Of a DNA stretch of 64,000 bases, positions 4,972 through 60,871 are shown in pieces (the first letter of the stretch is position 1; every line of letters begins with the position of its first letter). Source of the DNA: Mesobacillus subterraneus. GTDB taxonomy: Bacteria > Bacillota > Bacilli > Bacillales > Cytobacillaceae. Made by a program: the position numbers and the translations under genes. The notes beneath the pieces were generated by a model, which ran no database searches, was not told the DNA's origin, and saw only the letters and a program-made list of their open reading frames with translations. The stretch is from positions 2,914,001-2,978,000 of the forward strand of contig NZ_CP129019.1 in NCBI RefSeq assembly GCF_020524355.2, in the 5' to 3' direction.

Positions 4972-5069
4972 AAAAGCGCAAGCGCCTCGTTCAGCCCCGA
5001 CAAGCGACTCGAGGGGCTAGGCGCTGAAGCTAGACAATTCTAGAAGGTGAATTTATACTTTCTTATTCA
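4972..5069 (+). repeat. dispersed structured repeat, short form R1 with 3' tail
   Basis: Begins AAAAGCGCAAGCGCC and ends at CTAGACA near 5036. Only the outer arms are present: CAGCCCCGAC at about 4992 pairs with GGGGCTAGGCGC at 5013-5024. The internal hairpin present in longer copies is missing. The AT-rich tail (AATTCTAGAAGG to TTATTCAG) leads straight into the clpB terminator. It lies between converging yjzD and clpB. Confidence 0.8.
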
Positions 5070-5103
5070 GAAAAAAAAGTCATCCTAGAGGATGACTTTT
5101 TTT
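5070..5103 (-). terminator. clpB terminator
   Basis: AAAGTCATCC and GGATGACTTT pair around TAGA, flanked by A and T runs on both sides, so it can act in both directions. Confidence 0.85.
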
Positions 5104-5118
5104 CTCTATTAAAGCTTC

Positions 5119-7718
5119 TTACTTTACATTCAAGGATATATCTCCATTTTCTACGCCAATTTCCACCCGGCTCTTCTCTTTAACTCTGCCTGCAATGATT
5201 TCCCTCGCGAGCTTTGTTTCTAAGCTCCTCTGGATGAATCTCTTTAGCGGCCTAGCGCCGTATACTGGATCGAATCCTTGCTCAGCTAAGAACTCTTTTG
5301 CTTCATCGGTGATTGACAGCTCAATTTGCTGGTCTGCAAGCCTTGCTTGCAGAGTCTTTATTAATTTTCCAACAATCATCTTAATCTCCTTTAATGCCAG
5401 AGGCTTGAAAAGGATGATTTCATCCACACGATTCAGAAATTCCGGACGGAAATGGCCGCGAAGCTGGGCCATTACAAGATCCCTGGTTTCAGAGGAAATT
5501 TCCTCGTCTCCCCCCTGCCGGTCAAGCAAGTAATGAGAGCCAATATTGGATGTCATAATAATGACCGTATTCTTAAAGTCGACCATTCTGCCTTGTGAAT
5601 CCGTTACCCGTCCATCATCCAGCATCTGCAACAGGATATTGAAGACTTCCGGATGAGCCTTCTCCACTTCATCAAGGAGGATGACCGAATACGGATTTCT
5701 TCTGACTGCTTCTGTCAGCTGGCCGCCTTCTTCATAACCTACATAACCTGGAGGTGCCCCTATCAGCCTTGATACTGCATGTTTTTCCATATATTCAGAC
5801 ATATCTATTCGAATGATATGTTCTTCACTGTCAAATAAAGACTGAGCAAGCGTTTGGCCAGTTCCGTTTTACCTACACCGGTAGGACCTAGAAAAATGAA
5901 AGATCCAATTGGCCGATTTGGATCCTTGATGCCTGCTCTGGCTCTGAGGACCGCGTCGGATACGAGTGATACTGCTTCATCCTGTCCAACAACCCGATCA
6001 TGTAGAATGCTTTCTAGCTTGAGAAGCTTTTCCCGCTCTCCTTCAACAAGCTTCATCACTGGTATGCCTGTCCATCTTGAGACGATTGACGCAATTTCAT
6101 CTTCAGTCACTTCTTCGCGAAGGAGCCTCTCACCTTCACTTTTGCTAACCTCCTGCTCAAGTGCCTTGAGGTCTTTTTCAAGAGAAGGTATTCGGCCGTG
6201 CCTAAGCTCAGCAGCCTTATTTAAATCATAGTCATTTTCCGCTTTATCAAGTTCTCGCCGAAGTTTTTCCAGCAGTTCTCGCTGCTCCTGAACCTTTTGG
6301 ATGCCTTCTTTTTCTTTCTGCCACCTTGACTTCATTGCATTAGCTTTTTCCCTCAAGTTAGCAAGCTCCTTACGAAGAGTTTCAAGGCGGACTCGGCTAG
6401 CATCATCTTTTTCCTTAGTTAGCGCAGCTTCTTCAATTTCTAACTGCATGACCCTTCTAGTCACTTCATCAAGCTCAGTCGGCATTGAGTCAATTTCTGT
6501 ACGGATCATCGCGCATGCTTCATCTACGAGGTCAATCGCCTTGTCTGGCAAGAATCGGTCCGTAATGTAACGATCTGATAATGTAGCTGCAGCAACCAGC
6601 GCACGGTCATGGATATTCACTCCATGGTGAATTTCAAACCTTTCCTTCAATCCTCGTAAAATGGAAACAGTATCCTCGACATCTGGTTCTTGAACCAATA
6701 CCTGCTGGAATCGGCGTTCCAAAGCTGGGTCTTTTTCAATGTATTTTCGGTGTTCATCAAGAGTCGTTGCACCGATACAATGAAGTTCCCCACGAGCAAG
6801 CATTGGTTTCAGCATATTCCCGGCATCCATTGCCCCCTCTGTTTTACCCGCGCCAACAATGGTATGGAGTTCGTCTATGAATAACAGGATTTTCCCTTCA
6901 CTCTTTTTCACTTCATTCAAGACCGCTTTTAATCTCTCTTCAAATTCTCCCCGGAATTTCGCACCTGCTATCAGGGCGCTCATGTCGAGTGCAAAAATTG
7001 TCTTTTCCTTTAAGCCTTCCGGAACATCCCTGCGAACGATCCTTTGGGCGAGCCCTTCTACAATAGCTGTCTTCCCTACGCCTGGCTCCCCAATCAGGAC
7101 CGGATTGTTTTTCGTCTTCCTTGACAGGATACGGATGACATTGCGAATTTCACTGTCCCTGCCGATTACCGGGTCGACCTTTCCGGTCCGGACTTCCTCG
7201 ACAAGGTCACGGCCATATTTTTTTAATACTTCATACGTTGCTTCTGGGTTTTGTGAAGTCACTCTCTGGTTCCCCCTAACCTCTTTAATTCTTGCTAATA
7301 ATTTTTCTTTGCTAACTCCTAATTTTCTCATTGCTCCGCCAGATTCAGATCCAGGAATTTCAAGAGCGGCCAACAAAACATGTTCTACGGACAAATAGTC
7401 ATCTTCAAACTGTTTCATTTCCTTTTCGGCCTGAGCTAAAACCTTTTGAAGCGTTGCGGTAATAAATAATTTCCCCTGTTCTACACCACTTCCTGAAACT
7501 TGAGGTTTCTTTGACAGGGTAAGATTTAATCCATCTATAAAATGCTCCATTTTCATTCCGATACCAGTAAGCAATGTTGCCGCCAGATTGCCATCCTCTT
7601 CAAGTAGGGCAAGCAGCAGGTGTGCATCATCCACTTCCTGGTGATTATGTTGAACAGCCAGGGTCTGGGCTGAAACAAATGCTTTCTGCAAACTTTCGGT
7701 CATCTTATTTAAATTCAT
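5119..7718 (-). CDS. clpB: ClpB disaggregase ATPase, frameshifted at the second Walker A
   Basis: About 866 residues, the normal ClpB length. It is a hexameric AAA+ ATPase that resolubilises aggregated protein with DnaK. In order: Clp-N repeats (1-145), NBD1 with [13 protein letters not shown] and the [12 protein letters not shown]alker B, a coiled-coil middle domain (about 400-520), and NBD2 with [12 protein letters not shown] and [13 protein letters not shown]. The frame breaks just after GKTELAK: the run at 5853-5855 is AAA on the coding strand, and a fourth A restores [13 protein letters not shown] into MSEYMEKH. This is the only deletion-type break in the window. ATG 7718 has AAGGAG 9 nt upstream and is preferred over TTG 7724. 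A CtsR operator sits in the leader. Confidence 0.93.
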
Positions 7719-7730
7719 GCCCAATCACTC

Positions 7731-7747
7731 CTTGACCTTTTTTGACC
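7731..7747 (-). promoter_or_regulatory. CtsR operator of clpB
   Basis: On the minus strand GGTCAAA, three A, then GGTCAAG, the tandem heptad pattern of CtsR ((A/G)GTCAAA-N3-(A/G)GTCAAA). It lies between an AT-rich TATAAT-containing stretch at about 7750-7765 and the SD, so bound CtsR would block initiation. CtsR repression of clp genes is established in Firmicutes. Confidence 0.85.
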
Positions 7748-7781
7748 TTTAATTATATTATAATAAAAATTCCCAAATAGT

Positions 7782-7806
7782 AAAGCCATCCGCACTGGAT
7801 GGCTTT
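7782..7806 (-). terminator. yjzC terminator
   Basis: AAAGCCATCC and GGATGGCTTT pair around GCACT. It separates yjzC from clpB. Confidence 0.75.
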
Positions 7807-7868
7807 ACTGAATTATGATTTTATTCCGGAAATTGCTTTTATCCTGAATGAACAGGATCTTGAACTTT

Positions 7869-8051
7869 TTATTTGAACTTTGGCATGTACGTCCAGTGGC
7901 GATTGTGATTGGAGTTTTCCGGAAAACGGTCCCCAGCTTTTAGTTTGATTTTTTGCGGATTATTGACATTGCTGCCTGTTTCTCCAATTTCAATATAAAT
8001 CCCATTATTTGGTGCCTTTTGTCCAGCACGAAATTGATGACTTTGACCCAT
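7869..8051 (-). CDS. yjzC: YjzC family protein
   Basis: 60 residues, MGQSHQFRAGQKAPNNG to HNRHWTYMPKFK, very similar to B. subtilis YjzC (59 residues). The ATG at 8051 has GAAGGAGG 6 nt upstream, which rules out the longer reading frame beginning at 8084. It is a soluble, basic protein of unknown function. In B. subtilis it lies next to argF, as here apart from uppP. Confidence 0.85.
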   Translation of the reverse strand: MGQSHQFRAGQKAPNNGIYIEIGETGSNVNNPQKIKLKAGDRFPENSNHNRHWTYMPKFK

Positions 8052-8204
8052 TTGCCATCCTCCTTCATTAAAGTATTCCGGCAATTTTATTATTTACTGA
8101 TTTAAATAAAGTATTTATGCTTAATTTATCCTTCCAAAAAAAAAGGTTATACGGTACATTAGTGTAATGAGTTTATAAATTAAGTGGAGGAAATTAAAAA
8201 CCAT

Positions 8205-9017
8205 ATGGACAATTTCTATGAACTGATTAAATACATATTTCTAGGCCTATTCCAGGGTATTACTGAACCAATTCCTGTTTCATCAAGCGGACATCTTGAA
8301 ATAGCAGAGCACTTTTTTAAACTTAAAATTGAAGGAATGAGTTTTGCTCTATTGATGAATTCAGCTTCACTCTTTGCTGTTTTGTTAATTTACAGAGCCG
8401 ATATCATCCGGTTAATCGTGAACGGGATTGTCTATCTTAAAAGTAAAGATCCCGAAGCAAAATCTGACTTTATGTTCATCATTTATTTGATTGTTGGAAC
8501 GATTCCTGCAGGAGTCATAGGGGTCCTATTCGCGGATTTTATCGAGGACAAATTAGCTGATATTAAAACTGTCGGCGTAACACTGATCATTACTGGCCTT
8601 GCTCTCTGGCTGATCCGAAACCTGCGTGGCCGCAAGAATGACGGCGATTTAAGTCTGAAAGATGCCATTATTGTCGGACTTGCCCAAGCAGTTGCCCTTA
8701 TTCCCGGAATCAGTCGTTCTGGTGCGACCATTGTCGCTGCGATGAGCCTAGGCATGAAACAGGAAACTGCGCTAAGGTACTCTTTCCTGCTTTATATTCC
8801 AGTTAGTTTCGGAGGGATGATTCTCGGGTTTTCTGACCTTTTACTTGATGAACGTCTTGGAGAATTAGCAGTGCCATATATCTTTGCGTTCATTGCATCA
8901 CTGATTGCCTCTTACTTCTCTTTAAAATGGTTTATGAATATCATGGCGCGAGGAAACTTGAAATACTTTGCGATATACTGCTTCATTGTAGGACCACTTG
9001 TCCTCTTCTTTTCTTAA
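8205..9017 (+). CDS. uppP: undecaprenyl-diphosphatase UppP (BacA family)
   Basis: Integral membrane phosphatase that recycles undecaprenyl pyrophosphate to the carrier phosphate for cell-wall polymer synthesis and can confer bacitracin resistance. 270 residues with seven or eight hydrophobic segments and both family signatures: [19 protein letters not shown] near the N-terminus (catalytic Glu and Ser/His) and PGISRSGAT in the C-terminal half. GTG 8184 would overlap the GGAGG, so I use ATG 8205, though its spacing of about 13 nt is long. Transcribed alone. Confidence 0.92.
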
Positions 9018-9022
9018 TACTC

Positions 9023-9052
9023 AAAAACCGGCTACCTTAATAGCCGGTTTTT
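9023..9052 (+). terminator. uppP terminator
   Basis: AAAAACCGGCTA and TAGCCGGTTTTT form a 12-bp stem around CCTTAA. Confidence 0.9.
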
Positions 9053-9065
9053 GTGTTTTTTTGTA

Positions 9066-9212
9066 GGTATATGGAGTGTCCTCTTATCTGCCCTTTTGCA
9101 TCTTGGATTACTCATTCGGGTTACAGAATCTTCCTATAGGACCTTTTCGCTCCTTAACCACTCATTCGGTCTTATAGAACATCTCTTTGGACTTTTTCAC
9201 CTATTCAACCAC
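9066..9212. repeat. degenerate 50-bp tandem repeat, about three units
   Basis: Three diverged units of about 50 bp. Each has a CTTT(T/C)GC or CTTTTTCAC core and ends AACC-ACT-CATTCGG or GGATT-ACT-CATTCGG. The clearest pair starts ACTCATTCGG at 9110 and 9160. It fills the gap between the uppP terminator and the argF stop. No gene seen. Confidence 0.6.
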
Positions 9213-10169
9213 TTAATCTTTCAATATCTCCACAAGCAATGCCTTTTGGGCATGGAGCCGGTTGCCTGCCTGTTCGAATACGATGGAATGCTGGCCGTCG
9301 ATCACTTCTGCTGTTACCTCTTCGCCGCGGTGGGCGGGAAGGCAGTGCAGGAACAGATAGTCTTCCTTTGCAGCTCTGAGCAATGTTTCGTTCACCTGGT
9401 ATTCATTAAAATCCGTCAATCTCTGTTCATTTTCGAGTTCCTGGCCCATGCTGGTCCATACATCAGTATAGATGATATCCGCGTCAGCAACTGCTTCTTG
9501 AGGAGACTCGGTGATGACCATGTTAGCGCCGCTTTGCGTTGCAAAGTTTGCACAGCGAGCAGTTATCGTCTCATCAGGAAAGTATCCCTTGGGAGAAGCA
9601 ACACATACATCCATCCCGACTTTTGTACAGGCGACCATAAGTGAGTGGGCGACATTGTTTCCATCACCAATGTAAGCAAGCTTGAGGCCTTTAAGCGTCC
9701 CTTTTTTTTCGTAGATCGTCAGCAGGTCAGCTAGTGCCTGGCATGGATGGTACAAATCGGTCAGACCGTTGATGACCGGAATGTCTGCATAATCGGCCAA
9801 CTCTTCAACTGAATGGTGCGAGAAGGTTCTGATCATGATGCCATCAACATACTGCGAAAGAACCTGGGCAGTGTCTGCCACCGTCTCACCTCGCCCCAGC
9901 TGGAGATCGTTTCCATTTAAATAAAGTGCACTTCCTCCAAGCTGAATCATGCCTACCTCAAAAGATACTCTCGTACGTGTTGACGACTTGTCGAAGATCA
10001 TTCCAAGTACTTTTCCTTTAAGTGGATGATCAAATTGCTTTTTCAATGTTTTTTGCTTTAAAACTACTGCCTTATCTAACAGCGTTAAAATTTCCGCTGG
10101 CTCTAAATCGACCAGGGTTAACAAGTCCTTGCCCTTTATATCAATATTTATCTGCTGTAGCGCTGTCAT
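9213..10169 (-). CDS. argF: ornithine carbamoyltransferase
   Basis: Converts ornithine and carbamoyl phosphate to citrulline in arginine synthesis. 318 residues with the carbamoyl-phosphate motif SSTRTR, the HPCQ motif at about 140, and the ornithine-side [10 protein letters not shown] near the C-terminus. Last gene of the minus-strand arginine operon; its ATG overlaps the carB stop by 4 nt (ATGA), indicating translational coupling. The same gene ends the B. subtilis arg operon. Confidence 0.97.
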
Positions 10170-13100
10170 TCTGCCATCACTTCCTCATTAGATTCTCTCA
10201 GCCATTGTTCCAGGGAGTTGACATTCCAACTTTCAACCGAGGCACTTTTTATCAGTGCATGGAGAGTTTCTTTATGCGTCAATACGATTTTTCGGTTTTT
10301 CACCGCCCATTCTCTCAGTAAAATATCCTTGTCTGATGCACCAGGACAATACAAAGCTGCCACCTTTTGATGGTCGACTACTTTTTCGATATGAATTAAA
10401 TTGGAACCAGAAGACAGTTTTCTTGTTTCCAATAGGTCTTTTTCGTCTGCAAATGCAATGTCTCCGTAGACAGCATTTCCGCTGATTGAATGAAAACTCT
10501 TATTCAATGCTTCTTCAAGTGTCGAAGCAATGCTGATTCCTTCTCCGGTCGATATCATTTGCGGACCAGTCTTTGCATCCAAGCCTTTTAAGGCAAAATT
10601 CGAAAACACAGGATGTTTAACACATGTGTACCGTGCATTAGAGTCGAGTAACACCTCATCTTTCGACAAAATATATTTCCCGAGCAATATTTTTGTCGCT
10701 TTTTTAACTAAATCAACACCGGCTATCTTGCTGACAATCGGCATTGTCCTGCTTGAGCGAGGATTTACTTCGAGCAAGAACACATCGCATCCCTTCACAA
10801 TGAACTGGATGTTCATTAATCCCTTATACTTCAATTCCTTGACGATTCTCTTTGCATACTCGGTCATTTTCTGTTTTGTTTCACTAGAAAAGCTTTGGGC
10901 TGGAATGATGCAAAAACTGTCCCCTGAATGAACACCTGTTTTTTCAATGTGCTCAATGATGGCAGGAATCAGGACATGCTCTCCATCGGACGCAAGATCA
11001 AGCTCCGCCTCAGTTGCTTCAAGGTATTGATCCACCAGAATAGGATATGAAATACTTCCTGCATCAATAGCACTTTTAAGTTCCTGTGCGTTTCGAAGCA
11101 CCACCATATTCAGTCCGCCAATGACATAGGAGGGCCGGATTAATACTGGATACCCTAACCGCCGAACAGAGCTGACCAGTTCACTGTCGCCTTCAGCTGT
11201 TTCACCCTTTACTCGCGGAATTTTAAGCTTGTCGAGCAGCTGGTAAAATTGATCCCGGTCTTCAAACATATCAATGGTTGCTGAACTCGTTCCCAGCAGC
11301 TTGACTCCCGCTTCCTCGAGTTCTTTTGCCAGATTCAATGCAGTCTGCCCTCCCAACTGGACAATGACTTCATCTACCTCTTCAATTTCAACCACATTCA
11401 AGATGTCTTCCAGGGTTAAGGGTTCAAAATATAATCGATCAGATATGGCAAAATCAGTACTAACGGTTTCCGGATTATTATTTATCATGATTGTTTCTAC
11501 ATTTTCTTCTTTGAGGGCAAAAACACCATGCACACAGCAATAATCAAATTCGATCCCCTGACCGATGCTGATCGGACCGCTGCCAATCACTAGCACCTTT
11601 CGTTTCCCGCTTTTAACTATCGCCTCATTTTTCCCAAGATAGCTGGAGTAAAAATAATTGGAGGCAGATTCAAATTCTGCCGCACATGTATCGACCATTT
11701 TGTAAACAGGTGTAATTCCGTGCTTTTTTCGCAGCTCCCTGACCACTTTTTCACTAACCTTCCACTCTTTTGCCAGGTAGGAATCACTGTACCCCTTTTC
11801 TTTTAGGTACCTTAAATCTGAAGCTGTGATGTTCTCGATTTTACGTCCTTCAATCTCCTTCTCAATGCTGGTCAAAGTCTTGAATCTATGAAGGAAAAAC
11901 AAATCTATTTTTGTTTTTTCATGGAGAGGTTCGATTTGCTCACCCCGGCGCAACAGTTCGAGCAATGCAAAAATCCGCTGATCTGTCTGTTTTTCTGCCA
12001 ATGAATATAGCTGTGCAACAGTATATGCTTCAAATGCCGGCAGTCGTAAATCCAGCGTTTTTATGTTCAGGGAACGGACAGCTTTGTGAAAGGCTCGTTC
12101 AAAGCTCCGGTCAATTGCCATCGCTTCCCCTGTTGCCTTCATTTGTGTTCCTAATTTTCTGTCGATTTGCGGGAATTGCTCAAACGGCCATTTCGGTATT
12201 TTCACTACTACATAGTCGAGCGATGGCTCATAGCTGGCAAAGGTAGTGCCGGTTACAGGGTTTTTTATCTCAGCAAGATTGTATCCGACTGCAAGCTTTG
12301 CCGCCACCCGTGCAATCGGGTATCCTGTAGCTTTTGATGCAAGAGCTGATGATCTGCTGACCCTCGGGTTCACCTCAATTAAGTAATAATTTTTGCTATT
12401 AGGATCGAGAGCAAACTGGATGTTGCAGCCTCCAACGATTCCTAGAGCTGAAATGATTTTAACAGCTGATGTCCTTAGCATCTGGTATTCTCGATCCGTC
12501 AGCGTCTGTGAGGGAGCTACTACAATAGAATCGCCTGTGTGGATGCCAACTGGGTCAATGTTCTCCATATTGCAGATGGCGATACAAGTACCTGCAGCAT
12601 CACGCATCATTTCGTATTCGATTTCTTTATAGCCTGCGATGCTTTTTTCGACCAGGCATTGCTTTATTGGACTCTCACTTAATCCACCCGAAACGAGAAA
12701 GATCAATTCTTCCATTGTTTCAGCTATCCCGCCGCCTGTGCCACCTAATGTGTACGCTGGCCTGACAATCAGAGGAAAGCCGATCTTCTCAGCAAAAGTG
12801 ACCGCCTCTTCAATAATTTGAACAATTTCACTTTCTGGCACTGGTTCATTCAACTCATGCATTAAGCTCCGGAAGGCTTCTCTGTCTTCACCTTGCTTAA
12901 TACTTGCAACCGAGGTCCCCAGCACCTTTACATTGTACTTTTCGAGAACTCCTTCTTCACTTAGCTTAAAAACAAGATTCAATCCTGCCTGGCCGCCCAG
13001 AGTCCCTAAAATCCCATCCGGCTTTTCCCGCTTGATTACTTTTTCCACACCTTCAACAGTCATCGGTTCAAAATAGACTGAATCAGCGAATATCTTGTCT

Positions 13101-14339: not shown

Positions 14340-14415
14340 CAGACACCTCTCCAAATGTATATTTATTTAAAGTAACTTATTTTTATGCATTCTATATTAA
14401 AAAAATTTAATGCTG

Positions 14416-26473: not shown

Positions 26474-26494
26474 GGCTGAGGCGCTGGAGCTGGA
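26474..26494 (+). repeat. remnant of the dispersed repeat (R2, 3' end only)
   Basis: GGCTGAGGCGCTGGAGCTGG matches the last part of the family (GGGGCTAGGCGCTGGAGCTGG). The 5' arm is missing. It precedes the moaA terminator. Confidence 0.55.
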
Positions 26495-26546
26495 TTACGA
26501 AAACTTCATGAAGTTTTCCACAACTCAATACTTAATTCTATTAACC

Positions 26547-32836: not shown

Positions 32837-32889
32837 TAAATAGACCCTTAATGGTCATTTTGTATGACAATTTTGTGACCTGAAAGAAC

Positions 32890-33253
32890 AAAAAGCGGAA
32901 GCGCATCGTTCAGTCCCGACAAGCGCTGGAGGGCCGACCGGTGAAGTCGTTCTTTGACTTCACCTGAGCGAACCGAAATCGAAATGTATAGCCGACTGTC
33001 CAGAAACGCAGAAACTGGAGACTCCGACAAAGAAGCGCTTTTTGCTTCTGCCGGCGGAGTTGAAGTTTCGGAGTTTCTAGGAGGCGACACTAGACAATTC
33101 GAAAAGCGGAGGCGACTGCTCAACTCCGACAAGCGTTGGAGGGCCTGACAGTGAAGTCGCTCTTTGACTTCATTGGCAGGACCGAAACGTCTCGAGGAGT
33201 TAGGAGCCGCAGCTAGACAAGCGACTCGAGGGGCTAGGCGCTGGAGCTGGATT
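32890..33253 (+). repeat. dispersed repeat R3, nested composite
   Basis: The left arm of a type A element (AAAAGCGG, CAGTCCCGACAAGCG, internal TGAAGTC..GACTTCA hairpin at about 32943-32964) runs to ACCGAA. A type C module follows (about 32976-33100, own AGAAGC..GCTTCT hairpin), then a type B module (about 33101-33217; CAACTCC..GGAGTTAG arms and its own TGAAGTC hairpin). The A right arm (GCGACTCGAGGGGCTAGGCGC) closes it at 33221-33253. Short open frames here are by-products. Confidence 0.8.
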
Positions 33254-33274
33254 AAGAAAACCAACTATAGAAAA

Positions 33275-33703: not shown

Positions 33704-34471
33704 TTAGATATGCTTTTCAAACCAGTTTGCAGTTGCCTCAACACCCGCATTTGACACATTGTGGCCAGCATTTTCATCTGTGATGAATTCAAACTTTCCT
33801 TTTGCTCCTTCATAGCTTTTCCTGTTTTGCTCGTAAAAATGATATGCAGCTTGGTGGGGAACGACTGGATCTAACCTTCCATGCCAGAATAACAGCGGGC
33901 GTCCGTTCAGTTTTTCAGGCTGAAGGCTTAAGTCGTACTGTTTAAGCTGATTAAGCAAATCTGATACTTGCTCCTGGGATAAGCCTATCTTAACATTCCT
34001 TTTTTCCATTTCGTTCAGCTGCCATAATGCGAAATCCTCGAATGAAGGATTCCCCATCAAGCTGACACCTGTTCTTATCCACTCATGCTTGGCCATCGCA
34101 CCAAGTGTCGTAATACCGCCCATCGATGTACCGGCAACGCCGATTCTCGCTGGGTCCACCAGACCTTCCTCAACAAGCTCCTGCTTGATCGTCGAAAGCT
34201 CCTCAATAGACGTGAGGACGATTTCCCAAAAGCGGAAGCCCAGCTCAGTTTCTGATAATCCTTCACTGCGGGTTCCGTGATATTTCGCCTCAGGCATGAT
34301 AACCCTAAAGCCTTTTTCGGCAAAAAGGTAAGCATAATGCATATTACGTTCTGTTGTGCTCGTAAATCCATGCAGAAAAATAATCAAAGGCATGCTATCT
34401 GAAAATTGCTTTTGTTTTACAATATGGAGAACGGGAATATGTTCAATGCGTTTCTTCTCGACTAAAATCAA
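33704..34471 (-). CDS. yitV: esterase/prolyl-oligopeptidase-like hydrolase YitV
   Basis: 255 residues, alpha/beta hydrolase with LHGFTSTTERN oxyanion region, nucleophile GTSMGG (about 120), Asp in HGRLDPVVP and His in NAGHNVS: a complete Ser-Asp-His triad. Length and order (yitV before yitW) equal B. subtilis. Substrate unknown. The stop lies 78 nt before the yitW ATG, so they may be cotranscribed. Confidence 0.9.
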   Translation of the reverse strand: MILVEKKRIEHIPVLHIVKQKQFSDSMPLIIFLHGFTSTTERNMHYAYLFAEKGFRVIMPEAKYHGTRSEGLSETELGFRFWEIVLTSIEELSTIKQELVEEGLVDPARIGVAGTSMGGITTLGAMAKHEWIRTGVSLMGNPSFEDFALWQLNEMEKRNVKIGLSQEQVSDLLNQLKQYDLSLQPEKLNGRPLLFWHGRLDPVVPHQAAYHFYEQNRKSYEGAKGKFEFITDENAGHNVSNAGVEATANWFEKHI

Positions 34472-34655
34472 TAATTAACCCTCCTGAAGCAAGCGGATAT
34501 TAAATTTACCGCACTTTTAAGTATCTAAAATGATTTTTTTACAATTTATATGTAAAATGGTTACCATAGTGGTTATAAGACCAATTAACCATCAACCAAT
34601 ATATGTATTGTAGAACTCTTACGAAAAAAGAGCCAATCATACGCATATCAACAAG

Positions 34656-35064
34656 AAAAGCGGATGGGCCTAGGTCAGCCCCGACAAACGCTGGAGGGCC
34701 GACCGGTGAAGTCGTTCTTTGACTTCATTGGGCGGACCGAAGCGACTCGAGGGGCTAGGCGCGGGAGCTGGACAACAAGAAAAGCGGATGGTGCCTAGGT
34801 CAGCCCCGACAAGCGCTGGAGGGCCGACCGGTGAAGTCGTTCTTTGACTTCATTGGGCGGACCGAAATCGAAATGTATAGCCGACTGTCCAGAAACGCAG
34901 AAACTGGAGACTCCGACAAAGAAGCGCTTTTTGCTTCTGCCGGCGGAGTTGAAGTTTCGGAGTTTCTAGGAGGCGACACTAGACAAGCGACTCGAGGGGC
35001 TAGGCGCGGGAGCTGGACAACAAGAAAAGCGGATGGGCCTTGGTCAGTCCCGACAAGCGGTGGA
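34656..35064 (+). repeat. dispersed repeat R4, tandem 2.3 copies, one with a nested module
   Basis: Unit 1 (34656-34773) is a full type A element. Unit 2 (34780-35019) is type A interrupted after ACCGAA by a type C module that ends CTAGACAA just before GCGACTCGAG. Unit 3 (35024-35064) is truncated after GACAAGCGGTGGA. The units are separated by the same ACAACAAG. They fill the yitV-yitU divergent gap. Confidence 0.85.
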
Positions 35065-35129
35065 CCCAGGCATTACACGAGTGTAGAGTCTTGTTTTTAA
35101 AGGAAAAATAGAGATAAGAAGGAGTATTT

Positions 35130-40477: not shown

Positions 40478-40795
40478 GAAAGCGTAAGCGACTTGTTCTG
40501 CCCCGACAAGCGTTAGATGGCCGACCGGTGAAGTCGTTCTTTGACTTCATTGGCAGGACTGAACTCGAAAAGTATAGCCGAGTTTCTAGGAGGCGACACT
40601 AGACAATTTGAAAAGCGGAGGCGACTGCCCAACTCCGACAAGCGTTGGAGGGCCTGACAGTGAAGTCGCTCTTTGACTTCATTGGCAGGACCGAAACGTC
40701 TCGATGAGTTAGGAGCCGCAGCTGGACAAGCGTCTCGATGAGTTACGAGCCGCAGCTAGACAAACGATCGACGGGCTAGGCGCTTGAGCTAGACT
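40478..40795 (+). repeat. dispersed repeat R5, degenerate nested composite with tail
   Basis: A-type left part (AAAGCGTAAGCG, CTGCCCCGACAAGCG, TGAAGTC hairpin), a shortened C module (GAGTTTCTAGGAGGCGACACTAGACAA), a complete B module (about 40611-40730), a repeated B right arm, and an A right arm with ACGGGCTAGGCGC. The tail begins CTAATCTAAGTG. Confidence 0.75.
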
Positions 40796-40892
40796 CTAAT
40801 CTAAGTGAAAAAAGTTATATTTTCTTAATCAGGTAAAAAGCTCTAAATTACGTAAAGTTGTTTGAACTGCTATATTTTACTATAATGTAAGC

Positions 40893-40936
40893 AAAAGCGA
40901 AAGCGCCTAGGACAGCCATTGTCTCCTGGCGCAGCA
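40893..40936 (+). repeat. truncated dispersed repeat in the yitK leader
   Basis: AAAAGCGAAAGCGCCTAGGACAGCC matches the 5' end of type A, then diverges. It lies between a TATAAT (40880-40885, with TTGTTT 17 bp upstream) and the yitK SD, so it would be transcribed. Confidence 0.55.
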
Positions 40937-43439: not shown

Positions 43440-43600
43440 GATGGACAGAAACAGGAGGCATTCTCTCCTTTTTGTCCGTCATCGCCCTCATGATGAACAG
43501 AAATCTGTCATCCCTTCTCTTTTTTTGTCCGTCATCACACTCATGACGGACAAAATTCATTACCTCTTGTCTTTCTTTAGTCACTTTCTGTTAGAAGAAG
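43440..43600. repeat. degenerate tandem/inverted GTCCGTCAT repeats
   Basis: TTTTTGTCCGTCATC occurs at about 43469 and 43523, with weaker related copies. TTTGTCCGTCAT (43524-43535) and ATGACGGACAAA (43543-43554) form a perfect 12-bp inverted repeat. No gene seen. Confidence 0.6.
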
Positions 43601-44555: not shown

Positions 44556-44717
44556 AAAAGCGCAAGCGCCTTGGTCAGCCCCGACAAGCGCTGGAGGGCC
44601 TGCCAGTGAAGTCGTTCTTTGACTTTATTGGCAGGACCGAAGCGACTCGAGGGGCTAGGCGCTGGAGCTGGAAACTAATCTAAGTCCAAAAATCTTATAT
44701 TTTCATATTCATTCAAA
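44556..44717 (+). repeat. dispersed repeat R6, complete type A with tail
   Basis: AAAAGCGCAAGCGCC, CAGCCCCGACAAGCGCTGGAG, CCTGCCAG-TGAAGTC..GACTTTA-TTGGCAGG internal hairpin, and GCGACTCGAGGGGCTAGGCGCTGG. The tail from ACTAATCTAAGT to CATATTCATT leads into the lacI terminator. Confidence 0.85.
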
Positions 44718-51653: not shown

Positions 51654-53549
<1,896 letters not shown>

Positions 53550-53555
53550 ATCACT

Positions 53556-53586
53556 CACCCCTTTCCCTTGATGGAAAGGGGTTTGC
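53556..53586 (+). terminator. terminator of the cytoplasmic amylase gene
   Basis: ACCCCTTTCC and GGAAAGGGGT around CTTGAT, followed by TTGCTATTT. Confidence 0.8.
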
Positions 53587-53714
53587 TATTTGTCAAATTC
53601 CGCTAATGACGTCCTTATCCAAATATTTTTTCGTAAAACGAATCTTTTTCACTTCTAATTCCTCCTATAGTCTGTATAATTAAGGAATTGAATTACAACT
53701 TGGAGATGTAAAAC

Positions 53715-55058
53715 ATGAAGAATAAAACTGCTAAACTTTCACTTTTTGCCATTACATGGACTCTTTTTATTGAAATTCTGCTTTATATGCTGATGGGGAA
53801 TGCGGATACACTGATGCTTTCCCAGTATTCGGATAATTCCGTGGCAGCTGTTGGGGTATCCAACCAGATCCTTTCCATGGTCATCGTTATGTTCGGCTTT
53901 ATCGCAACTGGTACTGCAATCCTGGTTGCTCAGAACCTTGGCGCAAAAATGGATGAAGATGCCCGTGAAATTTCTGCGGTCTCGATTGGAGCGAATCTTG
54001 TATTCGGATTGATACTGAGCGCCGCTGTTTTCATTTTCAGTGAGCAATTATTGAGATTAATGGACTTGCCGCCTGAGCTTTTTGAAGAAGCCAATTCGTA
54101 TCTGAAAATTGTTGGTGGATTTTCGTTTATTCAATCGTTGATCATGACAGTGAGCAGCATCATCCGCAGCTACGGCTTTACCCGGGATATCATGTATGTC
54201 ACGATAGGGATGAATTTGCTGAATGTTATCGGCAACTATTTGTTCATTTTCGACCCTTTCGGCTTCCCAGTCCTAGGTGTAGAAGGTGTGGCGATTTCCA
54301 CCACTGTCAGCCGGATCCTCGGTTTGTTGGCTGCTATTTACATCATGACAAAGCGAGTTCCTGGATCATTGCCATTCTCGATGCTTTTCAGTTTTCCAAA
54401 AAAACATCTGAAAAACCTGTTGAATATCGGCATTCCTTCTGCGGGTGAGCATTTGAGCTACAATGGGTCACAGATGGTGATTACCTATTTTATTGCTACC
54501 CTTGGAACTCAGGCTTTGACGACTAAAGTTTATACACAAAACGTCATGATGTTCATCTTCCTTTTCAGTATCGCCATCAGCCAGGGCACACAGATCTTGA
54601 TTGACCATATGGTAGGTGCAAAGGAAATTGAGAAAGCTTATAAGCGGGCACTGAAAAGCTTGAAACTGGCGATAATTATTTCCATCACTACCGCTGCGCT
54701 TGTCTCATACTTCTCGAAAAATCTCCTCGGGATTTTCACTGATAATATGAGTATCATCGAACTCGGCACCACATTGATCTTGCTCACGATTATCCTTGAA
54801 CCCGGCAGATCCTTTAACCTGGTACTGATTAGTTCACTTAGGGCGGCTGGAGATGTCAAGTTCCCCGTATATATGGGAATCCTGTCAATGTGGGGAGTCA
54901 GTGTGACTTTGTCATACTACCTGGGAATATATCTTGGTTTGGGGCTTGTTGGGATATGGATCGCATTCATAGCCGACGAATGGCTGCGCGGTCTCCTCAT
55001 GCTTTGGCGCTGGAGATCCAGAGTCTGGGTGAAAAAGTCATTTGTCTCCGCAAAATAG
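53715..55058 (+). CDS. MATE family efflux transporter (YisQ-like)
   Basis: 447 residues, twelve membrane segments in two halves; NADTLMLSQYSDNSVAAVGVSNQ and IGIPSAGEHLSYNG are typical MATE helix-1/7 regions. Cation-coupled drug or metabolite export is inferred. It converges on asnO, as yisQ lies near asnO in B. subtilis. TTGGAGATG precedes the ATG. Confidence 0.9.
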   Translation: MKNKTAKLSLFAITWTLFIEILLYMLMGNADTLMLSQYSDNSVAAVGVSNQILSMVIVMFGFIATGTAILVAQNLGAKMDEDAREISAVSIGANLVFGLILSAAVFIFSEQLLRLMDLPPELFEEANSYLKIVGGFSFIQSLIMTVSSIIRSYGFTRDIMYVTIGMNLLNVIGNYLFIFDPFGFPVLGVEGVAISTTVSRILGLLAAIYIMTKRVPGSLPFSMLFSFPKKHLKNLLNIGIPSAGEHLSYNGSQMVITYFIATLGTQALTTKVYTQNVMMFIFLFSIAISQGTQILIDHMVGAKEIEKAYKRALKSLKLAIIISITTAALVSYFSKNLLGIFTDNMSIIELGTTLILLTIILEPGRSFNLVLISSLRAAGDVKFPVYMGILSMWGVSVTLSYYLGIYLGLGLVGIWIAFIADEWLRGLLMLWRWRSRVWVKKSFVSAK

Positions 55059-55154
55059 AATAAAATACGCTGATCAAATAGCAAATAGAATCCAAACGTA
55101 CTTGCTTATAGAAAATAGGATAATAGTTTTCCGCGTTTTAAATCGAAATTCAAG

Positions 55155-55285
55155 TTTTATAGCGATATTAACACTTTAATAGCTAAAATTTCTTTATTAT
55201 AGCGAAAACCTGAGTTTTATAGCGAAATTATTATTTTTATAGCGAAATTTGAATTTTTATAGCGAATTGGAAATTCTAAAGGTTT
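55155..55285. repeat. degenerate 20-22-bp tandem repeats (TTTATAGCGAAA)
   Basis: Six units with the core TTATAGCGAA or close variants at about 55157, 55176, 55196, 55216, 55237 and 55257, spaced about 20-21 nt, each followed by a variable AT-rich stretch. Between the MATE gene and the asnO terminator. No gene in this gap. Confidence 0.75.
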
Positions 55286-55304
55286 TTTTCCAGTTCTGCA
55301 TAGA

Positions 55305-55340
55305 ATAAGCAAGCCCGTTCCATAACGGGCTTGCTTTTTT
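55305..55340. terminator. asnO terminator (bidirectional)
   Basis: AAGCAAGCCCGTT and AACGGGCTTGCTT around CCAT, with T8 on the right. Confidence 0.9.
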
Positions 55341-57188
55341 TTAGTCTGCAATATTAATATTGTAATCTCTAAACCAGATATGAATCTGTGCTAACTGAGC
55401 CAAAAGCTGCGGACCTGTCATAAGCTGGCCGAACCACGGTACTTTGAAGGATGCACCCTCTGATTCAATCATTTTTTGCAGAGTGGACCTGTCAAAGAAT
55501 TCATGGAGTGCGCTGTTCGAATCGCTCATGAAATCTGACAGCATCCCTTGCACTGCCTGGGTATAAGCGGGATGATGAGTCTTCGGATATGGACTCTTTT
55601 TCCGGTACAAAACTTCATCAGGCAATGTGCCCTCCAATGCTTTGCGCAAGATTCCTTTTTCCCTCTTGCCGTGCATCTTCATTTCCCATGGAATGTTCCA
55701 GACATATTCCACAAGCCGGTGGTCGGCAAACGGAACCCTCACTTCAAGGCTGGCACCCATGCTCATCCGGTCCTTCCGATCTAGTAGTGTAGTCATGAAC
55801 CAGATGATATTCAGATAGAATAATTGTCTCCGCTTAGCCTCTACTTGATTTTCCCCATCCAGTACCGGCACCTCTGCGATTGTATCGTTGAATTTTGCCA
55901 TCATATAATCTTCGAGATTCAACTTTTTCCGCCAGTGATCCCTCAGCATGTTTTGTCGCTCATTAATCGACCGCATCCATGGAAACCCTGGTCTATTCAG
56001 ATCTTCTTCTCTGTGGAACCATGGATATCCTCCAAAGATCTCGTCAGCGCATTCGCCTGAAAGTCCTACGGTAAAATCCTGTTTGATTTCCCGGCAGAAC
56101 CAGAGCAGTGATGAATCGATATCAGCCATTCCAGGCAGGTCCCGGACATGGACAGCTTCAGTTAAATAGCCAGCCAGATCCTGCTGGGAGATGATGCTGC
56201 TATGGTGAACAGTACCAAAGGTTTCCGTCATTTTATTGATCCAGAAGGCATCAGCGTTTGGCTGGAATTCATTTTCCTTAAAATACTTGTCATTGCCTTC
56301 GTAATCGATCGAGTAAGTATGCAGGCTGCCCTTACCCTCTGCCTTATAATGATTCGCAGCAATAGCGGTGATTGCGCTTGAATCCAAGCCGCCTGAGAGG
56401 AATGTACATAGTGGTACATCTGAAACTAGCTGTCTCGTGACAGCATCGGTGAACAATCCCCGCACCTTTTCAGCTGTTTCATCGAGCGTATCTTCGTGTT
56501 TCTCACTTTTTACGTTCCAATATCTCCAAATTTTCAGTCCGTTTTTTGAAAAAGTTAGCCCATGGCCGGGTCGGAGCTCCTTCATGTTTTTAAAGATACC
56601 GGCACCGGGAGAACGGGATGGCCCAAGCCCAAATACCTCACAAAGTCCTTCCCTGTCTACCTCAGCCTTCACCTCTGGATGTGCCAGCAGCGCCTTTTGT
56701 TCAGAAGCAAACATAAGACCAGATGCTGTTTCCAGGAAAAACAGCGGCTTCACTCCAAGCCGATCGCGTCCGATAAACAGCTGTTCCTGCTGATGATCCC
56801 AGACAGCAAAGGCGAAAATTCCATTTAAATGCTCCAGACAATTTTCTTTCCATTCCATGAAAGAAGTAAGCAAAACCTCTGTATCAGAATGGCCGTTAAA
56901 GGAATATCCTTTTAATAGCAGTGCTTTTCTGAGGTCTTCCGTATTATAAAGTTCTCCGTTATAACAAATGGTATAACGGCTATCCCCTTGTGTTCTGGTC
57001 ATTGGCTGTTTGCCGCCCTCAGGGTCGACAACGACCAGCCTTTTATGACCTAGCGCAGCATGCCCCGAAGTCCAAACATTAGTATCATCGGGACCTCTTT
57101 TACTTAAAGTTTCCGCCATTTTCGCCACGGTCTTCCGTTCATGATCTAAATTTTTTCGATAGTCCACCCAGCCAGTTATTCCACACAT
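55341..57188 (-). CDS. asnO: glutamine-hydrolysing asparagine synthase AsnO
   Basis: 615 residues. Class II glutaminase domain starting with catalytic Cys2 (MCGITGW) and GHKRL, CYNGELYN; synthetase domain with the PP-loop LSGGLDSS (about 262). Makes asparagine from aspartate, ATP and glutamine. B. subtilis AsnO (614 residues) is sporulation-associated; length and neighbours agree. Divergent from the yisN-like gene. Confidence 0.93.
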   Translation of the reverse strand: MCGITGWVDYRKNLDHERKTVAKMAETLSKRGPDDTNVWTSGHAALGHKRLVVVDPEGGKQPMTRTQGDSRYTICYNGELYNTEDLRKALLLKGYSFNGHSDTEVLLTSFMEWKENCLEHLNGIFAFAVWDHQQEQLFIGRDRLGVKPLFFLETASGLMFASEQKALLAHPEVKAEVDREGLCEVFGLGPSRSPGAGIFKNMKELRPGHGLTFSKNGLKIWRYWNVKSEKHEDTLDETAEKVRGLFTDAVTRQLVSDVPLCTFLSGGLDSSAITAIAANHYKAEGKGSLHTYSIDYEGNDKYFKENEFQPNADAFWINKMTETFGTVHHSSIISQQDLAGYLTEAVHVRDLPGMADIDSSLLWFCREIKQDFTVGLSGECADEIFGGYPWFHREEDLNRPGFPWMRSINERQNMLRDHWRKKLNLEDYMMAKFNDTIAEVPVLDGENQVEAKRRQLFYLNIIWFMTTLLDRKDRMSMGASLEVRVPFADHRLVEYVWNIPWEMKMHGKREKGILRKALEGTLPDEVLYRKKSPYPKTHHPAYTQAVQGMLSDFMSDSNSALHEFFDRSTLQKMIESEGASFKVPWFGQLMTGPQLLAQLAQIHIWFRDYNINIAD

Positions 57189-57377
57189 TTTTAATCATTC
57201 CTTTCAGCGGAACTTTTGATTTCATTAAGCACTTCCAGAAACTAAACAATTGCTTAAGCATTACTCATCTTATGCACAAACAACTCAACTGGTTAATTGC
57301 CTATCTTTTAAACCATGTTATAAATTCGCCAAAATCTGTCTACAAAGAAGGTGAGCGATAATTAACGGAGGATCCAA

Positions 57378-57938
57378 ATGAATCGACAACAACGAAGCAA
57401 TCTAATTGAATTCCAGCCTCGTGCATTTAACGCCGGGACCGTAGAATATATTAATTCACAATGGGTTTTCTTTGATGAAGAAACAGAAGAGGCCGCACTT
57501 GTCGATGAATTCATCCATCAAGAAGTTGAAGTGCTGCGAAACAATAAATGGTGTAAAGGATTTTTGCTGGATAACGGCTGTATTCAAACCGGCGGTGAAA
57601 AAATTACTTTGCATGATCAGGAACTGATCAGGATCAGAAAACAACTGATCTATTCATTCGAGCGTTTGCTCGATGAACTGAATGATGAAGCGTTCGTCCA
57701 ATTTATCAATACATTGAATTCGCTCAATTTTTCGATTTATGATTGCATCTATTGTTATAACCACCTTACCTTCCTCGACCATGAGAAAGGAGTTTCAGGC
57801 GTCAACTTTTTGATTCTTGATAATGAAGAATACATCTGCAGTGTACAGCATCACTTTGATTACTTTGACACACAAAATGACAGGTTCGAATTGACCTTGA
57901 ACAACGGAAAGAGGGCCGTTATAGAGAGAATTTCCTGA
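57378..57938 (+). CDS. yisN: YisN-like protein (DUF2777)
   Basis: 186 residues, soluble, no membrane segments. MNRQQRSNLIEFQPRAFNAGTVEYI with a small beta N-terminal part and an acidic helical middle. Its position beside asnO matches B. subtilis yisN. GGAGGATCCAA precedes the ATG. Function unknown. Confidence 0.65.
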   Translation: MNRQQRSNLIEFQPRAFNAGTVEYINSQWVFFDEETEEAALVDEFIHQEVEVLRNNKWCKGFLLDNGCIQTGGEKITLHDQELIRIRKQLIYSFERLLDELNDEAFVQFINTLNSLNFSIYDCIYCYNHLTFLDHEKGVSGVNFLILDNEEYICSVQHHFDYFDTQNDRFELTLNNGKRAVIERIS

Positions 57939-57940
57939 AG

Positions 57941-58133
57941 AAAAGCGGAAGCGCCCCGGTCAGCACCGACAAGCGTTGGAGGGCCTGACAGTGAAGTCGC
58001 TCTTTGACTTCATTGACAGGACCGAAACGTCTCGAGGAGTTAGGAGCCGCAGCTAGACATGCGACTCGAGGTGCTGGGCGCTGGAGCTGGACAATTCTCG
58101 AAGTCAATTTTTCTTTCTCCTTTTTCATCAAAA
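57941..58133 (+). repeat. dispersed repeat R7, composite with compensating arm change
   Basis: Outer A arms read CAGCACC (about 57960) and GGTGCTGGGCGC (58070-58081), while other copies have CAGCCCC and GGGGCTAGGCGC, so a C-to-A change is matched by G-to-T. The interior is of type B (TGACAGTGAAGTC hairpin, GAGGAGTTAGGAGCCGC). The tail runs to the terminator at 58134. Confidence 0.8.
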
Positions 58134-58161
58134 AGAGCCTGCACTCATTGTGCAGGCTCTG
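58134..58161 (-). terminator. terminator of the GGDEF/EAL gene
   Basis: AGAGCCTGCAC and GTGCAGGCTCT around TCATT, A-run on the left. Confidence 0.9.
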
Positions 58162-58164
58162 AAC

Positions 58165-60205
58165 TTATTTTACGGTATATTCTACTTTTTCCACAGCCCT
58201 GAAGCCTTTTTCGAAAGCAGCTATATCAAGCGGTTTCTGGATATAGTACCCCTGAGCATAATGGCAGTCCAAATCTCTCAAAAGGTTCAGCTGTTCATGT
58301 GTTTCTACACCCTCGGCAACAATTTTTACAGAGAGACCTTGTCCCATCGTGATGATTGCCTTGACGATTGCAATATCTGATGGCTCATCATGAAGATTAT
58401 TGATAAATGACTGGTCGATTTTCAGCGTATCGATTGGCAAATTGCGCAAATAGCTTAATGACGAATAACCTGTCCCGAAATCATCAATCGAAACTTTCAC
58501 GCCTAGTTCCTGTAATGATTTCATTACCGAAATGCTATAGACGATATCTTTCAGCATCGCACTCTCTGTCAGCTCCAGGGAGAGGTATCCTGGTTCAAGC
58601 TGTGAAGTCTCCAAAGCTTGGATCACCTGACCAATGAACGCATGCTGTTGGAACTGATAGGCTGATACATTAACCGAAATCCCGAGATTCGGGAATCCAT
58701 TCTGCTGCCATTCTTTTGTCTGGACACATGCGGTGGTCAGCACCCATGCTCCAATCTCCTCAATCAACCCTGTTTCCTCTGCCAGAGGTATGAACTGTGC
58801 TGGCGAAACCAGTCCCAAATGCGGATGTTGCCAGCGGATTAGGGCCTCCGTACAGGTAATTTCTCCAGATTTCAAGTCCATGAGCGGCTGGTAGCAAAGG
58901 TGGAATTCATTCTTTTGGAGTGCTTTCCTTAAGTAGCTTTCAAGCTCAAGCCGTACCATTGCCTGGTCATTCATTCCGGTTGAGAAATAGGTAATCTTAT
59001 TCCCGCCTTGATTTTTCGAGCGGTTCATTGCAATATCCGCATTCTTCAGCAGTACATGCTCATCAAGACCATCCCCCCGGGAAGGAGCTGATTCCAATGC
59101 TTGCGGTGACGATAAATTCCTGATTTTGATAAAATAGAGGCATCGAAATAAGATTCTGTAATTCCCTGGCTGCTCGTGTCGTCTGGTCGATGCTGACATT
59201 CTCTGTCAGCAGCAACGTGAACTTATCCCCGCTGAATCTTCCCAGATAAGCACCTGCAGGTAACCGATCCTCGATTCTTTCGACCAGCTCTTTCAAAACA
59301 ATATCACCAGCATAATGTCCGAGACTGTCATTGATGATTTTGAAACGGTCAATATCAATGACAAGTACGGCAAGGAGTTCTTTCTTATGCCTGGCACGGT
59401 GGATCATTTCTTCTAGCTGTTCGGTAAACCTCATCCTGTTCGGCAAGCCCGTATCCTGGTCATAGTAGGCAAGCTGAATGATCTTTTCCTCTGTTTTTTT
59501 CTGAGTTGTAATATTCCGCCCGATACCATACGTTCCTACACATTCACCATTTACTGTAATCGGAATGTTTTTGATCTGAAAAATCTGGATTTCACCGCTC
59601 TTGACCGGAATTTCAATTGTGTAGGTCTGATCTTTCCCCTTTAGCGCCTGAATAAAATGTATTTTGGCACGTGGCACATCTTCCTGGTTGATAAAGTCGA
59701 GCGCTGACCTGCCTATTAGTTCATCCTCATTGTAGCCAAAGGTTTTCATGAATGACTGGTTTATACTTGTGAAATTTCCTGTTAAATCTGTTGAGTAGAC
59801 AAAGTCTCCATTATTGTCGAACAGTGAACGATAGTATTGCTCGGAAATTTTGAGGCTTTCGTTAAGCAAAAGGATATCTTGTTGTGAGGTTTCAACAAGA
59901 TTATTCAATGTGTTAATGGTGTACTGATCTTGAAGATCAAGATTAAGTTCCTGTTTATTGAAAGCTGTAAATGAAATAATGAGTTGTTTATCATCTGTGA
60001 TGCAGCCATTTGCTGCACAGCTTAACACAGTGGAGGCGGGCAGCTGCTTTTTCAGTAACTGCTCTATATGATGAAGCACAGGCTTTTCTTTTTGACTGAA
60101 AAAGATCTGCACCAATATATTGCGGTGGTCTTTGAATGAATTGCCCTCTATAAAGCTATTAAGTTGTATGTCATTTTCGTAAACGCAGCTTTTTGTCGTA
60201 GCCAT
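58165..60205 (-). CDS. PAS-GGDEF-EAL cyclic-di-GMP signalling protein, frameshifted
   Basis: About 680 residues. N-terminal region of unknown type (1-110), PAS (about 110-240, YRSLFDNNGDFVYSTD), GGDEF domain (about 250-410), EAL domain (about 420-680). The GGDEF motif reads SGDKF, so cyclase activity is unlikely. EAL retains TEALIRWQHP and DDFGTGYSSLSYL, so phosphodiesterase activity is plausible. The frame breaks between GGDEF and EAL at a six-G run (C6 at 59073-59078); five G give SSFPGDGLDEHVLL. ATG 60205 has GGAG 8 nt upstream. Confidence 0.9.
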
Positions 60206-60287
60206 TGCATTCTCCAATTATTATATTTCTCCAATAACCCTTCTCTTAAATTATCATATTTTCCGGGGTTAAGAAATGACAAAAAAA

Positions 60288-60316
60288 GAAAAAGCTGCCT
60301 ATAAAGACAGCTTTCT
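60288..60316 (-). terminator. yisL terminator
   Basis: On the minus strand AAAGCTG, about 10 nt, CAGCTTTTTC and a T-run. Confidence 0.6.
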
Positions 60317-60329
60317 TTCGACAATTTCA

Positions 60330-60686
60330 CTATTTGAACAAATATGTTCCCAGTGGAAGCGAAAAACCTAAATAGAGTACAAGAAGAACTGCGACAATGA
60401 ATTGAATCCACAGTACAGACGCTTTTTCGTTCTTTTTTGTACGGATTAAAATCATTTCCAGCATGGCGATAACCCATAAGCCTACTGCTGCCTTCAGCAC
60501 ATACATCAGGCTGATATTGATGCTGAAAAGAAGCCAGAAGCCAGTCAATAGAATGAACACGTAAAACAATCTAAGGACCATCTGGACAATTTTAGCGCCC
60601 TTTTCCTTACCGCTTTTATGTAGTCCAAGTGCTACGAAAAATAAAACCAGAGCCAAAAACCATGCTGTCATATGGGCATGTATCAT
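60330..60686 (-). CDS. yisL: YisL family membrane protein (DUF1516)
   Basis: 118 residues, four hydrophobic segments; IHAHMTAWFLALVLFFVAL start and RLFYVFILLTGFWLLF. Same length as B. subtilis YisL. GGAGGACGGG precedes the ATG. Function unknown. Confidence 0.88.
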   Translation of the reverse strand: MIHAHMTAWFLALVLFFVALGLHKSGKEKGAKIVQMVLRLFYVFILLTGFWLLFSINISLMYVLKAAVGLWVIAMLEMILIRTKKNEKASVLWIQFIVAVLLVLYLGFSLPLGTYLFK

Positions 60687-60780
60687 GTACCCGTCCTCCT
60701 AATAGTAAATTCTAAAATATCATATCATATTCAATAGGAATTTGATAAGTATAAGGTAGTTTCGAAAGACAGAACAGAAC

Positions 60781-60871
60781 AAAAAGCGCAAGCGACTCGA
60801 GGGGCTAGGTGCTGGAGCTGGACACTAATCTAAGTACAAAAATTTTATCCTTTCATATTCATTGAAAAAAG
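60781..60871 (+). repeat. dispersed repeat R8, minimal form with tail
   Basis: AAAAAGCGCAAGCGACTCGAGGGG is followed directly by the right arm and GCTGGAGCTGGAC. The left arm and internal hairpin are lost. The tail (ACTAATCTAAGT..CATATTCATT) is nearly identical to that of R6 and leads into a terminator. Confidence 0.8.

Follow-up and report, generated by a model that had tools for sequence, protein, structure and literature searches.

The 64,000-nucleotide stretch of the Mesobacillus subterraneus genome analyzed here (the window; contig NZ_CP129019.1, positions 2,914,001 to 2,978,000) carries eight clusters of a dispersed, structured repeat, which we refer to as the element. Pattern matches were judged against 100 shuffled sequences, and element ends were called by hidden Markov models (HMMs) of both ends. 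AAAAGCGSAAGCGCC (up to 3 mismatches) was found 15 times in the window with 2.7 matches expected, and CTGGAGCTGGAC (up to 2 mismatches) 12 times with 3.1 expected; neither count was reached in any of the 100 shuffles. The HMMs recovered eight clusters, every one on the + strand (4969-5066, 26479-26520, 32891-33255, 34653-35059, 40479-40917, 44556-44707, 57938-58111, and 60795-60857), in agreement with a preliminary description that had proposed at least eight loci of one family. All of the proposed loci were also covered by ungapped repeat families (D1-D7). The features, in window coordinates, are as follows (5 and 3 denote the order of 5′ and 3′ ends called by the HMMs).

4969..5066, + strand: element 1, a minimal unit that lacks the inner hairpin and has a tail of type I, arms CAGCCCC/GGGGCTAG (HMM ends 53).
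5071..5103, no strand: A-run, hairpin, and T-run adjoining element 1 on the 3′ side, bidirectional terminator-like (hairpin test and reading).
8172..8177, no strand: empty site; Bacillus sp. ISL-41 (L043) carries an element at the orthologous place (alignment; flanks 88% and 86% identical).
26479..26520, + strand: element 2, a remnant 3′ end whose type II tail leads to an A-run and hairpin (HMM 3′ end only).
32886..33255, + strand: element 3, composite of A5′, hairpin, C unit, B unit, and A3′ (ends 5533; D2, D3, D7; start by reading).
32965..33097, + strand: C unit within element 3, 98% identical to 34854-34986 (D7).
33100..33219, + strand: nested B unit of element 3, CAACTCC/GGAGTTAG (HMM ends and reading).
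34653..35059, + strand: element 4, A units in tandem with a C unit inside the second, then a truncated 5′ end (ends 53535; D1, D4, D5, D7).
40479..40827, + strand: element 5, composite; a B unit is nested in it, and two 3′ arms are of B type (ends 5533; reading).
40893..40917, + strand: lone 5′ end relic (HMM; pattern match with 1 mismatch).
44556..44707, + strand: element 6, one A unit whose type I tail leads to an A-run and hairpin (ends 53; hairpin test).
57938..58111, + strand: element 7, A5′, hairpin, B3′, and A3′, arms CAGCACC/GGTGCTGG, then A-run and hairpin (ends 533; hairpin test).
60777..60857, + strand: element 8, deletion form without 5′ inner arm, type I tail, A-run and hairpin (HMM 3′ end 60795-60857; hairpin test; start by reading).

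The first description needs correction for two copies: at 60.8 kb the 5′ inner arm is missing, and the copy at 26.5 kb consists of a 3′ end only. The 3′ limit also needs correction, since most copies reach about 30-60 bases further, through an AT-rich tail to an A-run. The outer arms pair as originally written (CAGCCCC/GGGGCTAG; CAGCACC/GGTGCTGG at 57.9 kb; CAACTCC/GGAGTTAG in B modules), and the inner hairpin TGAAGTC/GACTTCA is found above two alternative lower stems. The repeat had been thought to be non-coding, and none of the 136 clusters mapped in this genome lies within a long open reading frame (ORF); the same holds for all but 1 of 175 clusters in a first set, taken from relatives and part of this genome. 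The copy at 32.9 kb is overlapped by an antisense ORF (32848-33264; 138 aa, TTG start), which was treated as a chance occurrence. The repeat was also said to fit no named class, and indeed no Rfam family reached its gathering score anywhere in the 64 kb window; when positions 33,900-35,100 were searched up to E = 5, a single match (E = 2.2) was returned, which covers no element.

A unit is about 117 bases long and consists of AAAAGCGNAAGCGCC, a variable arm, GACAAGCG, TGGAGGGCC, the inner hairpin, GGACCGAAGCG, CTCGAG, the complementary arm, and CTAGGCGCTGGAGCTGGAC. Unit types differ in their arms, and each unit is self-complementary: (i) A, CAGCCCC/GGGGCTAG; (ii) B, CAACTCC/GGAGTTAG; and (iii) C, CAGAAAC/GTTTCTAG, the last identified by eye. 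Units can be nested (pattern 5533) or arranged in tandem at a spacing of about 123 bases, and across the 136 clusters the end patterns (53, 533, 5533, 5353 and so on) reveal a modular layout of outer modules with variable inner ones. GC-GNAA-GC, an octamer that we take to be an extra-stable DNA mini-hairpin, stands at the 5′ end in 186 of 226 cases. Beyond GCTGGAC follows an AT-rich tail of type I (ending in TATACTTTCTTATTCA) or type II (ending in TTATAATTTCCTAT), then the A-run and hairpin. Copies of type I start with AATAAGAAAAGC and end with CTTTCTTATT; those of type II (AGAACAAAAAGC ... TTTCCTAT) have no inverted repeat.

The preliminary description had further claimed that pairing is retained while the sequence changes. 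For this analysis, 154 distinct units from this genome and its relatives, caught by pattern, were reduced to 97 by removal of near-repeats (96.5%) and to 62 for alignment; A/B chimaeras (the A3′ arm occurring later), double catches, deletion forms, and further near-repeats were dropped by hand. A structure of 37 pairs, derived from single-sequence folds and the RNAalifold consensus, was compared with 500 shuffles. Paired cells amounted to 92.0% versus 84.2% after shuffling, and changes on both sides of a pair affected 149 cells versus 36.3 ± 4.7; neither value was reached in any shuffle. Nineteen of the 37 pairs carried changes on both sides (13.2 ± 1.7 after shuffling; reached in 1 of 500). 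The covariation score was 0.230 versus 0.106 ± 0.005 (0 of 500), and it dropped to 0.019-0.074 when partners were slid by 1-3 columns. RNAalifold predicted 30 pairs on the same alignment, 14 of them with double changes. Two pairs of the inner stem are weakly formed (27 of 62 and 36 of 61 units). In distant units, e.g. L079 and L144 (Alkalihalobacterium), whole arms have been replaced with pairing retained. These counts overstate the independence of the changes, because the structure was partly derived from the same sequences and related rows were counted separately. The claim nevertheless stands: pairing is under constraint while the letters change. Strong covariation within a repeat family need not signify a functional RNA.

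Beyond what had been described before, the copies are inserted, mobile elements whose strand is fixed relative to replication, mostly opposing the fork, and whose 3′ tail in more than half of the mapped copies adjoins a reversed terminator, a target they have in common with IS200-type elements. The terminator test required an A-run and hairpin 3′ of the tail under strict criteria and was applied to the 130 clusters that have a 3′ end. A reversed intrinsic terminator abuts the tail in 73 of these, and the same test run outward from the 5′ end was positive in only 3 of 136. On the reverse-complement strand, ATARGAAA occurs close to the T-tract in 21 of the 73 tails versus 1 of 147 control terminators, which shows only that this stretch belongs to the element. 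By reading, a GAAA stretch lies ahead of the AT-rich hairpin on that strand; possibly, it serves as a guide that pairs with the T-tract.

With dnaA at 4,410,737-4,412,053, the listed elements switch from + (4.354 Mb) to - (4.417-4.419 Mb). When the replication terminus was set at the antipode, 123 of 136 clusters opposed the fork. Four of the 13 exceptions fall between 1.78 and 1.98 Mb, possibly the region of the true terminus; a terminus at 1.83 Mb, picked post hoc, raises the count to 125 of 136. In this genome, 108 of the 130 clusters with both neighbors have a 3′-side gene of opposite strand; for the first set, the count is 107 of 144. Gene direction alone is insufficient to explain the strand bias, because 15 clusters follow the fork rule only and 3 the gene rule only (7 follow neither). 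Among clusters failing the terminator test, 50 oppose the fork and 7 do not. In a second genome (G028), 92 of 100 listed sites (of 116) fall into two strand arcs, both break points of which were picked after viewing the sites.

Identical copies and empty sites show that the family is mobile. Bacillus sp. V3-13 has four identical copies of 169 bp (L031, L046, L083, and L117) in unrelated flanks and with no target duplication. A site filled in Mesobacillus boroniphilus (L040) is empty in Bacillus sp. ISL-55 (L120), with flanks 90% and 93% identical, and the gap sits at the A-run of a terminator. Likewise, the site filled in Bacillus sp. ISL-41 (700-base flanks 86-88% identical) is empty at window position 8172, with untidy 3′ edges. 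Older copies stay put: L028 in this genome and L084 in Cytobacillus oceanisediminis occupy a common site and differ by a C module.

The genome (4,786,507 bases, one contig) has 253 matches to the 3′-arm pattern, versus 0 for the reversed control, and 288 to the core pattern. With two mismatches allowed, the core pattern was present in 91 of 151 sampled genomes of the same family and in 18 of 25 genera; single hits are possibly due to chance, because the reversed control also scores 0-2 per strand in some genomes. Among the matches listed, carriers include records of Mesobacillus, Neobacillus, Cytobacillus, Alkalihalobacillus, Rossellomorea, Anaerobacillus, and Sporosarcina. No element was matched by blastn in phage and plasmid records, and viral contigs gave two exact core words, both set in unrelated sequence. 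In the open-licence literature searched, the element's sequence words had no relevant match (the sole match was a Drosophila paper), and a word search returned no description recognizable as this repeat family.

Two side observations concern the ends of copies. Loci L043, L046, L066, and L121 hold a second repeat with the same outer ends but another middle (GCCTAAAACGCCACTTCGTGTGGC-like); the ends are thus found around more than one cargo. Type II tails (e.g. L156, L162, L181, and L186) carry TTATCCACA, presumably a DnaA box, exactly in 24 of 57 and with at most 1 mismatch in 46 of 57; in this genome it is exact in 11 tails, with 17 occurrences in total in 623 kb (overlaps included). DnaA titration by type II tails is possible.

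How might such elements have spread? Fork-set strand, lack of duplication, hairpin-rich ends, and the T-tract junction together point to single-strand insertion. As the best explanation, to which we give a little less than an even chance, we propose that the elements are non-autonomous, are inserted as single-strand DNA behind terminators, and likely depend for this on a Y1 transposase in trans. An enzyme of this type (IS200/IS605) is predicted to move them as folded single-stranded DNA and would join them to the lagging-strand template directly behind the T-tract of intrinsic terminators. The active strand would be the reverse complement of the one presented here, starting behind the T-tract with the ATARGAAA-like stretch and an AT-rich hairpin, and its far end would be formed by a GCGC-rich hairpin followed by a T-rich stretch. 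The enzyme would recognize the fold, so that pairing rather than letters would be kept. Nested and tandem forms may have arisen by recombination or slippage between units.

A direct parallel to such insertion is provided by IS200-type loci of two clades in relatives (L238-L244 and L246-L252). Their left end follows a hairpin and T-tract in 14 of 14 cases (8 flagged at that place by script, 6 by eye; L245 was left out of the count), and the figure for other Y1 loci is about 2 of 15. Like the elements, they have hairpins near both ends; at L252, an IS200 copy lies between a terminator and an element of the present family. They differ in encoding a Y1 transposase, whereas the repeat encodes nothing and has no long sequence in common with them. 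Fork-set strand (123 of 136; 92 of 100 listed sites in G028) and lack of target duplication (V3-13) are traits that the repeat shares with non-autonomous IS200/IS605 elements. As a side note, no paper in the open-licence literature searched was recognized as describing IS200 behind terminators.

Several observations weigh against a Y1 enzyme as the mobilizer. The likeness between the left ends of IS200 and of the element is short, AT-rich, and drawn by eye. No match to Y1_Tnp was found in this genome, which is the richest in copies, nor in G003 or G068, and a relic of an L238-type IS200 was not found here either, in a search run without a positive control. Copies in this genome would thus be relics of a lost enzyme or depend on another. 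Copy number does not track IS200 number: within the genus, Y1 matches and core sites number 7 and 56 in G085, 4 and 17 in G100, and 0 and 288 in this genome. Of loci L253-L272, 19 are RAYT-like and one is a broken Y1 locus; no element end was detected within about 2 kb of any of them at E up to 1. Fifty-seven of the 130 tails failed the terminator test. An autonomous copy, which would show as a lone 5′ end with a lone 3′ end up to 5 kb behind it, was seen in 0 of 175 clusters, the search covering up to about 8 kb at each of these 175 loci. Finally, the passages of PMC8919778 drawn on here report the same target and strand bias for group IIC introns, which insert immediately 3′ of rho-independent terminators.

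This last point speaks for a rather improbable alternative, in which the reverse transcriptase (RT) of group IIC introns would insert element RNA behind terminators. Insertion right behind an intrinsic terminator is indeed seen for the elements (73 of 130 tails versus 3 of 136 5′ ends), and RT genes occur in 15 of 21 genomes of the genus. However, no RT match was obtained in G028, G078, G096, G108, G112, and G045, which have 116, 89, 109, 80, 89, and 32 core sites, and the single RT fragment of this genome contains a stop and has none of four element words nearby. Introns of this group carry a ribozyme and an RT; the elements measure 100-400 bases, and in the window no group II family (ribozyme core with domain V) reached the Rfam cut-off. 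A functional structured RNA is somewhat less improbable, though still unlikely. Transcribed copies would fold and work either in trans or, at the ends of transcripts, in cis, and selection would have kept the copies behind terminators. Strong covariation, retention at one site across genera (L028 and L084), and a T-run in the element's direction in 27 of the 73 hairpins 3′ of elements are consistent with this, as is the excess of G.T over A.C cells on the strand presented here (85 versus 35), but the wobble preference almost vanishes (38 versus 28) when the four irregular pairs involving columns 46, 47, 50, and 51 are omitted. A fork-set strand is unexpected for an RNA, no Rfam family reached its cut-off, orthologous sites differ in presence, and nested and tandem forms vary freely. 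Type I ends (AATAAGAAAAGC/CTTTCTTATT) would suit a classical miniature inverted-repeat transposable element, with short terminal inverted repeats and moved by a DDE transposase, but type II copies (AGAACAAAAAGC ... TTTCCTAT) have no such repeat, the four identical V3-13 copies have no target duplication, and neither a fork-set strand nor a one-sided terminator target would be expected; we regard this explanation as very improbable.

Among known systems, REP/REPIN sequences and other non-autonomous relatives of IS200/IS605 are believed to owe their movement to a Y1 enzyme (TnpA-REP, RAYT, in the case of REP) that acts in trans on the lagging-strand template, and they resemble the elements in their many short palindromic, intergenic, non-coding, and fold-dependent copies, as far as the passages drawn on describe them (PMC6006769, PMC3733652). 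The elements differ in their modular units of about 117 bases, their terminator target, the lack of a detected flanking RAYT, and the lack of the GTAG/CGTC tag at the hairpin foot in the 62-unit core consensus. For two TnpA-Y1 subclasses, no REP-like sequences were found, according to PMC6006769. A RAYT partnership of the REPtron kind was considered and rejected, as RAYT-like loci have no flanking copies. The RAYT-like genes (L253-L270 and L272) encode about 230-300 aa and often occur once per genome; of two compared with the NCBIfam model REP_Tyr_transpos, one scored over the cut-off and the other just short of it. BOX elements of Streptococcus pneumoniae are likewise intergenic, are predicted to form stem-loops, and consist of outer modules that enclose inner ones in varying number (PMC3049150, in part), a likeness of layout. 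They differ in sequence and host, and the inner modules of the present family are whole self-complementary units; the passages of that paper drawn on mention neither a terminator target nor a fork-set strand. By description and not by sequence, bcr1 of the Bacillus cereus group and Bhal-1/Bhal-2 of B. halodurans are comparable as intergenic stem-loop repeats of Bacillaceae (PMC2267715, PMC3733652, excerpts).

The family is thus real, structure-conserved, and mobile, with a candidate mobilizer only, and modular self-complementary units and terminator targeting set it apart from other palindromic non-autonomous elements. A bolder and rather doubtful proposal is that it represents a novel class, terminator-seeking single-strand-DNA 'SINEs' of Bacillaceae, whose covarying, folded, mix-and-match modules would hitch on Y1 enzymes, perhaps RAYTs without flanking copies, and would line the rear of terminators on the strand that serves as lagging-strand template. 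The family, which reaches 288 core sites per genome, would unite terminator targeting and insertion into the lagging-strand template with covarying folds, and would offer a natural set for studying single-strand enzymes that read hairpins and not letters. It would bear on terminators as landing sites common to IS200-type elements and group IIC introns, and on whether the RAYT genes of these bacteria have clients.

Two further repeats were also observed in the window. The intergenic segment 55153-55266 holds four direct repeats of 20 bases around TTTTATAGCGAA (D8), and a pair of repeats of about 35 bases, direct and inverted, starts with TTTTTGTCCGTCATC within 43469-43558 (D10, I2).

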